Below are positions 9,386 to 15,107 of a stretch of 60,276 nt of DNA, one piece after another; position 1 is the first letter of the stretch, and every line of letters starts with the position of its first letter. The notes below the pieces were generated by a model, which was given only the letters and a program-made list of their open reading frames with translations, was not told where the DNA came from and searched no databases. This stretch comes from Methylophaga sp. Its GTDB lineage: Bacteria > Pseudomonadota > Gammaproteobacteria > Nitrosococcales > Methylophagaceae. The stretch covers positions 188,840 to 249,115 of the forward strand of contig NVUI01000001.1 of assembly GCA_002733105.1 (NCBI GenBank), given 5' to 3'. The position numbers and the translations under genes were made by a program.

Positions 9386-9625
9386 ATGCCCATTAAACAA
9401 GCATTAATTGATGAAATAGAAGTCTTACTCCGTTATAACCTAGAAAGTACGCAAGAAGGTATTAAAGTCCACCACACAGCTCGTGAAGAGCTTGTTGCCG
9501 CGACAACACGGCTACACGAAAAAGGTTTGGTTAACCAACCCGATGGTGGTTATTTAACAGATTTAGGTCATGAAGCTGCTAAGCACACTCAAGCTGCTCT
9601 CCGAATTTTAACCTCTAAAAGCTAA
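9386..9625 (+). CDS. TIGR02647-type conserved hypothetical protein
   Basis: 79 residues, mainly helical, with a winged-helix-like layout (IDEIEVLLRYN .. AREELVAATTRLHEKGLVNQPDGGYLTDLG). It resembles the TIGR02647 family of small gammaproteobacterial proteins of unknown function. The LTDLGHEAAKH part looks like a wing, so DNA binding is possible but unproven. Its stop overlaps the convergent folA stop by four bases. Confidence 0.75.
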   Translation: MPIKQALIDEIEVLLRYNLESTQEGIKVHHTAREELVAATTRLHEKGLVNQPDGGYLTDLGHEAAKHTQAALRILTSKS

Positions 9626-10107
9626 ATACGTTCATATTCAATAAAACTATAGGGATGATCATTCTTTTCATCAGCAGAATGATCTTCTCTACCTATCTCA
9701 TTCCAAGCAGATAGATCCCAGTCTGGAAACCACGTATCACCCTCTAGTTTTGCATGCACTAACGTTAAATATAACTTATCGGCTTCGGGTAGAAGCTGCT
9801 TATATAATGAAGCCCCTCCCATCACCATCACCTCATCAACATCTCGACACAACTGTAGAGCTTGTTTAATTGAATTAACTACCGTACATCCTTCCGCCAA
9901 ATAATCTGCATTTTTAGTGACAATAATATTATGCCTTCCTGGTAGCGCTCTACCGATAGATTCATGAGTATTCCGCCCCATGATCAGAGGTTTACCCATC
10001 GTGACACGTTTAAAATATTGAAGATCTGCAGATAATTTCCAAGGTAAATCATTATCTTTACCAATTAAACCTTGTTGATCTGTCGCTACAATAATGGCTA
10101 ATTTCAT
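9622..10107 (-). CDS. folA: Dihydrofolate reductase
   Basis: 161 residues, typical chromosomal DHFR. Motifs: IGKDNDLPWKLSADLQYFK (substrate/NADPH pocket with the catalytic acidic residue), GKPLIMGRNTHESIG (NADPH), PGRHNIIVT, and VMVMGGASLYKQLLPEADKLYLT. It reduces dihydrofolate to tetrahydrofolate for thymidylate, purine and methionine synthesis. It is transcribed away from a gene-free stretch with DnaA boxes and from priA. Confidence 0.96.
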   Translation of the reverse strand: MKLAIIVATDQQGLIGKDNDLPWKLSADLQYFKRVTMGKPLIMGRNTHESIGRALPGRHNIIVTKNADYLAEGCTVVNSIKQALQLCRDVDEVMVMGGASLYKQLLPEADKLYLTLVHAKLEGDTWFPDWDLSAWNEIGREDHSADEKNDHPYSFIEYERI

Positions 10108-10220
10108 TTATAAAACTCTAAAAAACTAATACATAGCATAACATCTGTCCACCGACACTTTATCAGGTAGAATTAACTTTATAATGTGCTGTTTTTTTAA
10201 GTCAATTAACCATAAAGTAC

Positions 10221-10404
10221 TGTGTATATCTATTGTATAAACAGCCTGATAAAACAAAGGATAATCTGTGGATAACTTTTCCTGTGGATAAGTCAGCATT
10301 TTATCCACAAGAGATCAACCTGATTAACATAAAACTATACCAGATTGAAGATATCCTAAGTTAATGAAATCACGCTTAAATAAACTGTTATCCACATATC
10401 CACA
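10221..10404. other. DnaA-box cluster between folA and priA (candidate replication-origin-like or DnaA-titration site)
   Basis: Four perfect TTATCCACA boxes lie at 10267-10275 and 10283-10291 (minus strand), 10301-10309 and 10388-10396 (plus strand). One-mismatch boxes lie at 10221-10229 (minus) and 10396-10404 (plus). The orientation switches between the second and third perfect boxes. An AT-rich tract, about 10405-10457, follows directly and reaches the priA ATG, resembling a DNA-unwinding element. The whole folA-priA gap (10108-10454) has no convincing gene. No dnaA, dnaN, gyrB or mnmG is in the window, so this may be oriC, a secondary cluster that titrates DnaA, or DnaA control of folA/priA. 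Confidence 0.7.
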
Positions 10405-10454
10405 GGCATTAATAAACAACAACATAATCTTATATATTTAATAATATTAATATA

Positions 10455-12638
10455 ATGACATCTATCGTACACATCGCTATTCCTTGTCCATTAAGACAAG
10501 GATTTGATTATCTAAGTGACTTGCCATCAACTGCTTGGTCAAAAGGTATCCGAGTTAAAGTTCCTTTTGGATCACGACAAGTAATAGGTATCGTGTTAAA
10601 TAGCCATGATAATTTAGATAAACAACCCATATCTAAATTAAAAGTGATTATTGAGAAACTAGATGAGCAACCACTTATTACAGTTGAATTGTTCAATTTA
10701 ATCCAGTGGGTAAGCCATTATTACCATCATCCTATTGGCGAATGTTTTCAAGCAGCATTGCCTAAAAAACTGCGACAAGGGGAAAGTGCTGAGTTATTAA
10801 CTGAAACGATTTGGAAAATAACATCATTAAAAAAGGAAGATAATCTCGGTATTAAACAACAGAAAATCATTGATCTTCTTGTGCAAAATGCATCTGGTTT
10901 AAATCAACAACAAATAACACAACAATTAGGCCAAAGTCGTTCGTCTTTGATTAGTTTAGAAAATAAACAGAAAGTTGTTCAACAACAACAAATAAAATTA
11001 CCTTCAACAACACAAATTTTATCAACAGCCTGTCAACTTAACGACGAGCAGCAATGTGCAGTGGATACTGTTTGGAGTCAGCGATCATCTTTTTCAGCTC
11101 ATTTACTTCAAGGTATAACCGGGAGTGGTAAAACAGAAGTTTATATTCACCTGACACAGCAAATGTTGGCTGACAATAAACAAGTATTGATTCTAATTCC
11201 CGAAATTGGCTTAACCACACAGTTTGTTGAACGTTTTCGCCAACGTCTTGCTGCGCGTATCGTGGTATTAAACTCTTCTATTTCTGCTGGAGAGCGTAAA
11301 CAATCATGGTTACTTGCAAAAGAGGGATTAGCTGATGTGGTGATAGGCACGCGTTCAGCCGTGTTTACCTCATTAAAAAAAGTTGGGCTAATTATCATTG
11401 ATGAAGAACATGATAGTTCCTATAAACAACAAGACGGGCTACGTTATCATGCACGCAATATTGCGCTAGTTAGAGCAAAGCGACTTTCTATCCCTATCGT
11501 ATTAGGAAGTGCGACACCCTCACTAGAAAGTCTATATCACGTTCAACAGGGGCGTTATAAGCTATTAACTCTAAATAAACGTGCCACAGGTGCTTCTTTA
11601 CCTAAAGTGAAGATGGTGGACACTGCAGGGCCGACAGCGAATAGTGGCATTACCAGTGAATTATACCAAGCGATTCAAACCCAAATAGCAGCAGGAAATC
11701 AAGTGCTATTGTTTATTAATCGCCGTGGTTTTGCGCCTGTTTTAATGTGTCATGAATGTAACTGGCAGGCCACATGCTCACATTGTGATGCCAGAATGAT
11801 AGTGCACCATCGTCGACATATTTTAATGTGTCATCATTGTGGTTTTATTCAACGATTACCTCAGCAATGTCCTCAATGCAAAACAACTGACTTAAATACC
11901 TATGGTGCAGGCACTGAACAAATAGAACAAACCTTGCAAGGTTATTTTCCTGATACACCCGTATTAAGAATTGATCGTGATAGTACCCAGAGAGTGAATG
12001 CTTTTGCTGATGTAGTGAAATATATTCAGCAGGGGGGTGCCAAAATATTGGTGGGCACTCAAATGTTAGCGAAAGGTCATGACTTTCATAATGTTACCTT
12101 AGTAGGGGTGATCGATGCTGACCAAGGCTTATTCAGTGCAGATTTTCGTGCAACTGAAGTATTAGCGCAATTGATAACACAAGTAACAGGGCGAGCTGGC
12201 CGGGGTAAAAAAGCAGGTAAAGTGTTGATTCAAACTAGCCAACCACAGCATCAGCTTTGGCAAGATTTAATTGGTAAAGGATATTCATATACCGCAAAAA
12301 AACTGCTGCAACAACGGCAAGAAATTAGTTTACCTCCAGCAGGATCGTTATGCATGATTAGAGCTGAGGATAAACAGCAGCAACTTGCCATTCAGTTTTT
12401 AACAGAAGTGCTCGCAATATTTAATCAGCACAACCAGCAACAAGTGATGGTCATGGGGCCTGTACCGGCAATTATGGAAAAAAGAGCAGGCCGTTATCGC
12501 GCTCAATTATTATTATCATCACCACAACGAAAACCAATACATCAATTATTAGATCAATATATCGATGTTATTTCAAGGTTGAAATTAGCGAGAAAAGTGA
12601 GATGGTCGATCGATATTGACCCTTTGGATTTAATGTAA
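10455..12638 (+). CDS. priA: Primosomal replication restart helicase PriA
   Basis: 727 residues, full length for PriA. The N-terminal 3'-DNA-binding domain (CPLRQGFDYL..GIRVKVPFG) is followed by a superfamily 2 helicase core with Walker A GITGSGKTEVY and the DEEH box IIIDEEHDSSYKQQ. Eight zinc-binding cysteines lie in CHECNWQATCSHC and CHHCGFI..CPQC. PriA rebuilds replisomes at collapsed forks. The ATG has no evident Shine-Dalgarno sequence and lies at the end of the AT-rich tract adjoining the DnaA boxes. Confidence 0.97.
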   Translation: MTSIVHIAIPCPLRQGFDYLSDLPSTAWSKGIRVKVPFGSRQVIGIVLNSHDNLDKQPISKLKVIIEKLDEQPLITVELFNLIQWVSHYYHHPIGECFQAALPKKLRQGESAELLTETIWKITSLKKEDNLGIKQQKIIDLLVQNASGLNQQQITQQLGQSRSSLISLENKQKVVQQQQIKLPSTTQILSTACQLNDEQQCAVDTVWSQRSSFSAHLLQGITGSGKTEVYIHLTQQMLADNKQVLILIPEIGLTTQFVERFRQRLAARIVVLNSSISAGERKQSWLLAKEGLADVVIGTRSAVFTSLKKVGLIIIDEEHDSSYKQQDGLRYHARNIALVRAKRLSIPIVLGSATPSLESLYHVQQGRYKLLTLNKRATGASLPKVKMVDTAGPTANSGITSELYQAIQTQIAAGNQVLLFINRRGFAPVLMCHECNWQATCSHCDARMIVHHRRHILMCHHCGFIQRLPQQCPQCKTTDLNTYGAGTEQIEQTLQGYFPDTPVLRIDRDSTQRVNAFADVVKYIQQGGAKILVGTQMLAKGHDFHNVTLVGVIDADQGLFSADFRATEVLAQLITQVTGRAGRGKKAGKVLIQTSQPQHQLWQDLIGKGYSYTAKKLLQQRQEISLPPAGSLCMIRAEDKQQQLAIQFLTEVLAIFNQHNQQQVMVMGPVPAIMEKRAGRYRAQLLLSSPQRKPIHQLLDQYIDVISRLKLARKVRWSIDIDPLDLM

Positions 12639-13346: not shown

Positions 13347-15107
13347 TTGAAGGCTCAGCTAGTAAAAGTGCTTGAACAGGTTTTATCTGATTTAATTTCT
13401 CAGGGAAAACTCCCCGAAATCACCTTGCCAGAAATTCAAATTGATCGCACGAAAGATAAGATACACGGCGACTTTGCATGTAATGTTGCGATGATGTTGG
13501 CGCGATCTGCCAAAATGAATCCTCGCCAAATTGCCAAGCTGATTGTTGATGCTTTACCGGATGTTGATTTTATTACTCAGGTTGATATTGCTGGCCCTGG
13601 TTTTATTAACTTCACTTTATCTGCTGATTCAGCGCAACAAATTGTTAAAGAGGTATTAGCAGCAGGCGATCAATTTGGCCGTAGTAAGTTAGGAAAAGGC
13701 AAACGAGTACAAGTTGAGTTTGTGTCTGCAAACCCCACAGGTCCACTGCATGTTGGCCATGGTCGAGGTGCAGCCTACGGCTCGGTAGTGAGTAGTTTAT
13801 TAGCTGCTGTTGGTTTTGAAGTACATCGTGAATATTATGTCAATGATGCAGGCCGACAGATGGATATTCTTGCCACCAGTGTGTGGTTACGATATCTAGA
13901 AGCTTGTGGTGAAAAATTTACTTTTCCTAGTAATGGCTACAAGGGAACCTATGTTAGCGAGATTGCTGCAACGATAAAAGCAGATCAGCAAGATAAGTTT
14001 CATCATGCTGCTACCGCTGTTTTTGCTGATATTCCGGCTGATGAACCTCAAGGCGGTGATAAAGAACAGCATATTGATGCTTTAATTCAACAAGCAAAGA
14101 AATTATTAGGTGAAACAGCCTATCGCCATGTGTTTGATATGGGGTTGAATTCTATTCTGGCAGATATTCGAGATGATTTGGCTGATTTTGGCACTGATTA
14201 TGATGAATGGTTCTCGGAACGATCCTTAATGGAATCTGGCGATGTTGATAAGGCGATAGAGCAATTAAAAGCGTCCAAGATGCTTTATGAAAAAGAGGGG
14301 GCATGGTGGTTTAAGTCAACAGATTTTGGTGATGAAAAAGATCGTGTAGTCGTGCGTGATAATGGTCAAACCACTTACTTTGCTTCTGATATTGCTTATC
14401 ACTTAAATAAATTTAACCGTGGTTTTGATACCGTAATCGATATTTGGGGTAGTGACCATCATGGTTATATTCCAAGGGTAACAGCCTCATTAACCGCTAT
14501 GGATCAAGATGCAGATAAGCTAAAAGTATTGTTGGTGCAATTTGCGGTACTTTATCGTGGTACAGAAAAAATTGCTATGTCGACCCGTAGTGGTCAATTC
14601 GTGACTCTACGTGAGTTGCGTGAAGAAGTAGGTAAAGATGCAGCACGATTCTTTTATGTGATGCGGGGTGCAGATCAGCATATGGATTTTGATCTGGAAT
14701 TGGCAAAATCACAAAGCAACGATAACCCAGTCTATTATGTTCAATATGCTCATGCTCGTGTATGCAGTGTGTTTAGACAGGTAGCTGAACGTGGATTGGC
14801 TTGGGACCAGAATCAAGGTGAACAAAATTTAAATCGTTTAACTGAGGATCACGAGCAGGCCTTATTGACGGTGTTAGCACGTTATCCTGAAGTGTTAGAG
14901 TCAGCCGCGATGAATCACACACCACATATTTTGGCTCATTATTTAACTGATTTAGCTCGCGACTTTCATACCTACTATAATGCTCATCACTTTATAGTGG
15001 ATGATATCGAGCTTTGCCAAGCACGATTAACATTGATTACAGCTGTTAAACAAGTCATCGTAAACGGCCTAAGTGTGATAGGTGTATCGGCTCCGGAGAC
15101 CATGTAA
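13347..15107 (+). CDS. argS: Arginyl-tRNA synthetase
   Basis: 586 residues, class I synthetase. Features in order: N-terminal tRNA D-loop-binding domain, the HIGH-type motif in [17 protein letters not shown] (about 130-145), the KMSKS counterpart [10 protein letters not shown], and the alpha-helical anticodon-binding domain at the C-terminus. The start is TTG at 13347, with GTAGG 10 bases upstream; no in-frame ATG fits before the conserved GDFACN region. The SPOR gene begins at the base after its stop, as in pseudomonads. Confidence 0.96.

Follow-up and report, generated by a model that had tools for sequence, protein, structure and literature searches.

A probable oriC beside priA, rather than dnaA, in a Methylophaga-like family

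DnaA boxes between folA and priA

The window, by which we mean the whole stretch of Methylophaga sp. DNA analysed here (60,276 nucleotides), contains a gap of 347 bp (72% AT) between folA and priA, with argS downstream of priA (Table 1). We take the family concerned to be the GTDB Methylophagaceae, within the order Nitrosococcales; Methylophaga is placed in Piscirickettsiaceae by NCBI. The window's own genome (G000) is a draft assembly of 22 contigs and 2.06 Mb, 82.5% complete, in which the window belongs to contig C17.

Table 1. Coordinates of features in the folA-priA-argS region of the window
Feature	Position	Strand	Basis or remark
folA, dihydrofolate reductase	9622-10107	-	DHFR_1, E 8.7e-64
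folA-priA gap, proposed oriC	10108-10454		four perfect boxes, AT tract, GC3-skew change-point
left half-box array (ATAA; TTAT on the other strand), spacing ~11-12 bp	10226-10264	-	proposed weak DnaA sites
three-box module: reverse box, 7 bp, reverse box, 9 bp, forward box	10267-10309		0 mismatches in the window
perfect TTATCCACA DnaA boxes	10267-10275, 10283-10291, 10301-10309, 10388-10396	-, -, +, +	pattern scan
right-hand overlapping forward box pair, TTATCCACA and ATATCCACA, 8 bp apart	10388-10404	+	columns conserved in alignment
one-mismatch box ATATCCACA	10396-10404	+	overlaps last perfect box
conserved tract then AT-rich run, proposed unwinding element	10405-10454		ends at priA start codon
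priA, replication-restart helicase	10455-12638	+	TIGR00595 and PriA domains
argS	13347-15107	+	TIGR00456

The initial annotation had described this gap as gene-free, with four perfect and two one-mismatch DnaA boxes within about 185 bases, an inversion of orientation midway and, after the boxes, a tract of about 50 bases of almost only A and T. The flanking genes matched the DHFR_1 and PriA profiles, all four perfect boxes were located in the gap, orientation changes from two reverse to two forward perfect boxes, and positions 10408-10454 and 10428-10454 are 91.5% and 96% AT, respectively. A single one-mismatch box was found rather than two, and the boxes span 138 bases rather than 185.

The same description had called the cluster non-random, and our counts agree. 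The genome holds 38 perfect boxes in 2.06 Mb, compared to 20 matches for a reversed-pattern control, and four of the 38 fall within 130 bp at the folA-priA gap, whilst no other pair less than 500 bp apart was found among the 38 boxes listed. By a simple Poisson estimate, four perfect boxes in 138 bp would arise by chance at approximately 2e-12 per placement. With up to one mismatch allowed, the whole window contained 30 boxes against 20.0 expected, a number reached in one of 100 shuffles. This excess is mild, and what stands out is how closely the perfect boxes are packed.

A layout conserved around priA

To define the distribution of this cluster we used a set of 59 genomes, comprising 36 of the Methylophaga-like family, 6 of a second family in the same order and 17 other members of the class. 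Of the 36 family genomes, 31 yielded a PriA N-terminal domain, and 30 of these had a readable upstream region (G014 has just 71 bases before the match). All 30 regions hold two to four perfect boxes at nearly fixed places, no more than 260 bp from the domain. The three-box module (≤3 mismatches) was present in 32 of the 36 family genomes and in none of the 23 others, with zero matches to its reversed-pattern control in every genome row; across the class it occurred in 5 of 369 genomes, namely four family members and one stray (G242). In G014 and G031 the module lies on contigs where no priA was seen. It was missing from G002, G017 and G023, which are incomplete genomes likewise without a priA match, and from G029 (1.1 Mb, rated 100% complete), where we detected neither a PriA match nor a perfect-box cluster; the 1.5 kb upstream of argS in this genome (L349) contained no perfect-box cluster and no ORF of at least 50 codons.

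Named loci gave a similar picture. The best PriA matches (L023-L028) were 59-74% identical to the PriA of the window, and the Methylophaga-like loci L024-L028 show the same layout upstream of priA, in whole or in part, with the boxes of the Methylophaga loci L026 and L027 at the same places as in the window. Of 80 named loci, nine had a perfect box less than 700 bp upstream of priA (L024-L028, L029, L075, L090 and L099), 70, mostly Pseudomonas, had none within that distance, and L023 offered only 53 bases upstream of priA. A check for the boxes in close relatives had been proposed alongside the initial description, and the boxes are indeed kept. That the cluster arose by chance, which this conservation already contradicts, or is an artefact of assembly, for which the fragmented draft would leave room, has a very small probability given that the layout recurs in 32 of 36 family genomes and in L024-L028, with the reversed pattern matching nowhere in the set.

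The region upstream of dnaA (up to 1200 bases) held no perfect box in 29 of 34 family genomes and one in the other five, a count that excludes G017 and G027 and covers fewer than 1000 bases in G005 (81), G010 and G031. Scanning for a rival box cluster, another check suggested at the outset, thus revealed none upstream of dnaA and left the folA-priA packing as the sole one in G000. Judging from this loss of boxes (for example L001:739-1170), dnaA may be under little or no box-mediated self-control in the family.

Alignment of 30 family gaps, with offsets counted from the first box, resolved the anatomy of the region. ATAA half-boxes stand at offsets -40, -29, -18 and -6 in 19, 20, 27 and 19 of the 30 gaps, respectively, and between -120 and 220 no other ATAA offset reaches 10 gaps, barring the boxes' own at +5 and +21. 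Read by eye, the window departs from this pattern in its outermost half-box, which is ATAT, and in the next, which sits one base out of place. Between the module and the right-hand boxes the sequence varies; 12 of the 30 gaps share TTAT at +68. Column counts to the right of the overlapping forward pair give a tract near CAGGCATTAATCATCAACATC, then ATCTTTTAAATA, then the priA start. By eye, the conserved tract after the last box is triplet-like, approximately TTA ATC ATC AAC ATC with the first base mostly A. It occupies the same position as the DnaA-trios of other bacteria, as described in PMC8235120, but gave no clean match to the consensus of a canonical DnaA-trio (a run of 5'-YTR-3' triplets).

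Nearest-neighbour stability identified the AT end as the least stable 30-mer and 40-mer within 260 kb of G000 and 180 kb of G019, with about eight other places less stable in G000 when 60-mers were used. In the 220 kb of G033 the AT end ranked fourth for 30-mers and 40-mers, three to four other places being weaker, and over 400 kb of G034 the tract was not exceptional, with 14-37 other places less stable depending on window size.

Box clusters outside oriC serve other roles in E. coli, according to the portions of PMC5835720 and PMC4245941 consulted, and the initial annotation had accordingly allowed that the gap might be a DnaA-reactivating (DARS) or DnaA-titrating (datA-like) site rather than an origin. 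E. coli DARS1 and DARS2 likewise consist of a conserved DnaA-box trio upstream of a DNA-metabolism gene, whose order and spacing differ from those of the family module. The DARS core trio, defined here as two tandem boxes 12 bp apart with an inverted box 14 bp further on, is fitted by DARS1 and DARS2 with three and five mismatches, and had no match in the window at up to four; the reactivating option thus fails on box geometry. The IHF consensus, relevant to datA, was present in 8 of the 30 family gaps and absent from that of the window. Neither type of site would be expected to mark a switch in strand bias of the kind described below. We consider a DARS or datA site in place of an origin extremely unlikely, the box geometry and the missing IHF consensus both speaking against such a function.

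DARS-type trios do occur elsewhere. At up to two mismatches, 188 of 369 genomes from the class contained one, whilst the E. coli oriC stretch contains none. The only such trio in G000 at up to three mismatches lies on contig C4 (44904-44938; L351), downstream of a 399-aa ORF. In other families it is the upstream region of priA that shows the DARS geometry, in whole or in part (G042, G045, G049, G050, G052 and G054; L029, L075, L090 and L099). The priA upstream region of other gammaproteobacterial families is a possible, undescribed third DARS location.

In five relatives (G001, G006, G007, G009 and G028; L339, L340, L341, L342 and L343), the layout occurs twice, the interval separating priA from argS holding a second copy 2.4-2.6 kb away from the first. 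These second copies retain the half-boxes, the module, the right-hand boxes (some mismatched), the conserved tract and the AT end, with no priA start after it. Between G001 and G007 the second copies agree at 93%, against 62-63% for the two copies within each of these genomes, which indicates that their duplication predates the split between G001 and G007 and that the layout has been kept since. In addition, G021 (L344) has a degenerate second copy, whose module carries two mismatches, and in G033 an extra copy lies approximately 320 bp upstream of the main one; G000 has a single copy, and no second one was found in the window.

The twin copies bear on a further proposal, that the boxes are an operator through which DnaA controls priA, and perhaps folA, with the origin elsewhere. 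Across the 30 readable family genomes the boxes keep a nearly constant distance to priA, including where a gene other than folA lies upstream, and in other families a DnaA-box trio also precedes priA, in G054 without a skew switch; both are as an operator would predict. However, the presence of the whole layout, including its unwinding-type tract, downstream of priA argues against simple priA control, and DnaA control of priA alone, as raised by the initial annotation, fails to explain it. These copies provide the strongest argument that the block would be a self-contained element rather than a priA operator. Furthermore, the G000 assembly, at 82.5% completeness, holds no other perfect-box cluster that could be the origin.

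Position of the strand-bias switch

A change-point was fitted to GC skew at third codon positions (GC3) across predicted ORFs of 120 codons or more, and gene strand entered the model as a covariate. This strand-corrected fit was adopted since raw cumulative-skew minima were blunt, lying 1.5 kb (G033), 7 kb (G000 and G034) and 28 kb (G019) from the boxes. Four of the 36 family genomes (G000, G019, G033 and G034), picked for their long contigs, were fitted, at a resolution of gene midpoints only and with approximate intervals. In all four, the change-point fell on the box cluster or no more than about 4 kb from it. On contig C17 of G000 (260 of 276 kb covered), skew was negative to approximately 192-199 kb and mostly positive beyond, with the change-point at 199,544 (approximate interval 194,929-199,544) and the boxes at 199,106-199,235. 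The change-point of G019 was at 528,270, with boxes from 528,693. In G033 it was at 305,480 (303,431-305,480), with the boxes (303,140-303,182) just outside the interval and 2.0 units worse, and in G034 at 366,584 (362,362-367,258), with boxes from 362,793 that fitted 0.8 units worse.

In G019, G033 and G034, dnaA and priA share a contig, 75, 119 and 213 kb apart, and dnaA is strongly rejected as the switch point, with likelihood-ratio deficits of 208, 128 and 149 units, respectively. The one full DnaA match of G000 is on contig C12, not on C17, and no lasting skew switch was detected on C12 over the 134 of 154 kb covered. The GC-skew analysis recommended in the initial annotation therefore places the switch at the cluster and not at dnaA. 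This weighs further against the boxes acting as an operator with the origin elsewhere, an explanation that we regard as very improbable, although DnaA may affect priA as well.

One outgroup from the other family of the order (G040) was fitted and behaved differently. Its change-point (842,040) lies inside the gap between a dnaN-like ORF (840,708-841,853, named by eye) and dnaA (842,118-843,479), where perfect boxes occur at 842,005, 842,096 and 842,108, whilst its priA is 24 kb off, 41 units worse as a switch point and without boxes upstream. Recovery of a classical origin here indicates that the change-point method locates such origins where they are present, and the contrast between a switch at dnaA-dnaN in G040 and at priA in the Methylophaga-like family implies that origin location differs between the two families. 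For G054 the fit was weak (likelihood ratio 9.9, interval 31,425-247,041); dnaA (32.7 kb) lies close to the raw skew minimum (35.9 kb), and no switch was seen at the priA trio, 187 kb away, under this weak fit. G052 gave no clear skew switch in the 160 kb covered.

A probable origin outside the dnaA neighbourhood

The folA-priA gap is very probably oriC, and in the Methylophaga-like family the origin would adjoin priA instead of dnaA. This reading draws on the skew switch, the G040 control, the sole packing of perfect boxes, their conservation, the bare region upstream of dnaA, the twin copies and the AT tract. It was reached by computation, from the position of the skew switch, the box layout and its conservation, and the weakness of the AT tract in G000. 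Features looked for in an oriC were found at the gap, namely a box cluster in a non-coding gap, a skew switch, an AT-rich element by sequence, and conservation. The initial annotation had included an oriC in an unusual place among its options, and the switch, the bare dnaA upstream region and the boxes kept in relatives support that option.

From these features we infer DnaA binding, melting and initiation at the gap. DnaA would occupy the strong boxes, both in the three-box module and in the right-hand pair, and, when ATP-DnaA is plentiful, would also fill the phased half-boxes. The resulting assembly is predicted to melt the AT-rich tract adjoining the right-hand boxes, upon which the replicative helicase would be loaded and two forks would depart in opposite directions.

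Origins of the DnaA-dependent kind are known; what looks new is the place of this one and its occurrence as twin copies in some relatives. PMC4285127 describes oriC as usually flanked by dnaA but located elsewhere in many bacteria, including E. coli, with a gene context conserved within groups. Part of DoriC 10 records a cyanobacterium with an origin far from dnaA and dnaN, and an extract of PMC5859110 lists priA, dnaA and recA among genes near the predicted origin of Francisella. In an origin at dnaA-dnaN or rpmH-dnaA, as in G040, TTATCCACA boxes likewise cluster in a gap where the strand bias switches, whereas the proposed origin of the family adjoins priA, 75-213 kb from dnaA in the three genomes with both genes on one contig. 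The E. coli oriC (mnmG-mioC) is likewise away from dnaA, but its neighbours and box order differ from those of the family, and, judging by the class sample (369 genomes), E. coli lacks the three-box module. As outlined in PMC4451416, the E. coli oriC combines strong boxes with weak sites phased at 11 bp, which the family half-boxes resemble, and the sites of its weak arrays are two base pairs apart. The same paper describes bipartite origins in Bacillus, Helicobacter and Mycoplasma; in five relatives of the window two box clusters likewise flank one gene, but each cluster is a full copy of the layout and the gene between them is priA, not dnaA. We found no origin beside priA reported for Methylophaga in the open PubMed Central literature, among the matches listed, and an unremarked entry in DoriC or BOriS is possible; the words Methylophaga and priA are absent from the text of PMC7174414 and from the main text of DoriC 10.

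How bacterial origins change place is an open question, on which a same-order outgroup with its origin at dnaA-dnaN and a whole family with its origin at priA may throw light, the two-copy members resembling intermediate states. Tentatively, the origin might have left dnaA-dnaN in the family ancestor for a position on the promoter side of priA, perhaps through recruitment of a DARS-type site like those that other families have there, and some members might then have duplicated the whole origin, with both copies kept by selection, tying initiation physically to restart. Two observations make descent from a DARS site less certain: the box orientation differs, and the six same-order outgroup genomes have no boxes upstream of priA. 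Comparing these genomes would also reveal the boxes, spacings and unwinding tracts that an origin has to retain. In practical terms, taking dnaA as the origin would misplace annotation starts and read-depth estimates of growth rate in such bacteria.

The gene neighbourhood of the boxes varies among relatives. A Na/Pi-cotransporter gene, identified by a Pfam match at L339 (389-2047) and by eye at L026, L027 and L343, either separates folA from the boxes or replaces it as their neighbour, with the boxes remaining beside priA. In G031, a 384-aa ORF adjoining the box module (L345:492-1646) fuses dihydrofolate reductase and PNPOx_N domains. Between priA and argS, L025 (7189-8211) and L028 (7190-8479) carry a reverse-strand gene that appears, by eye, to be glutamate dehydrogenase-like.
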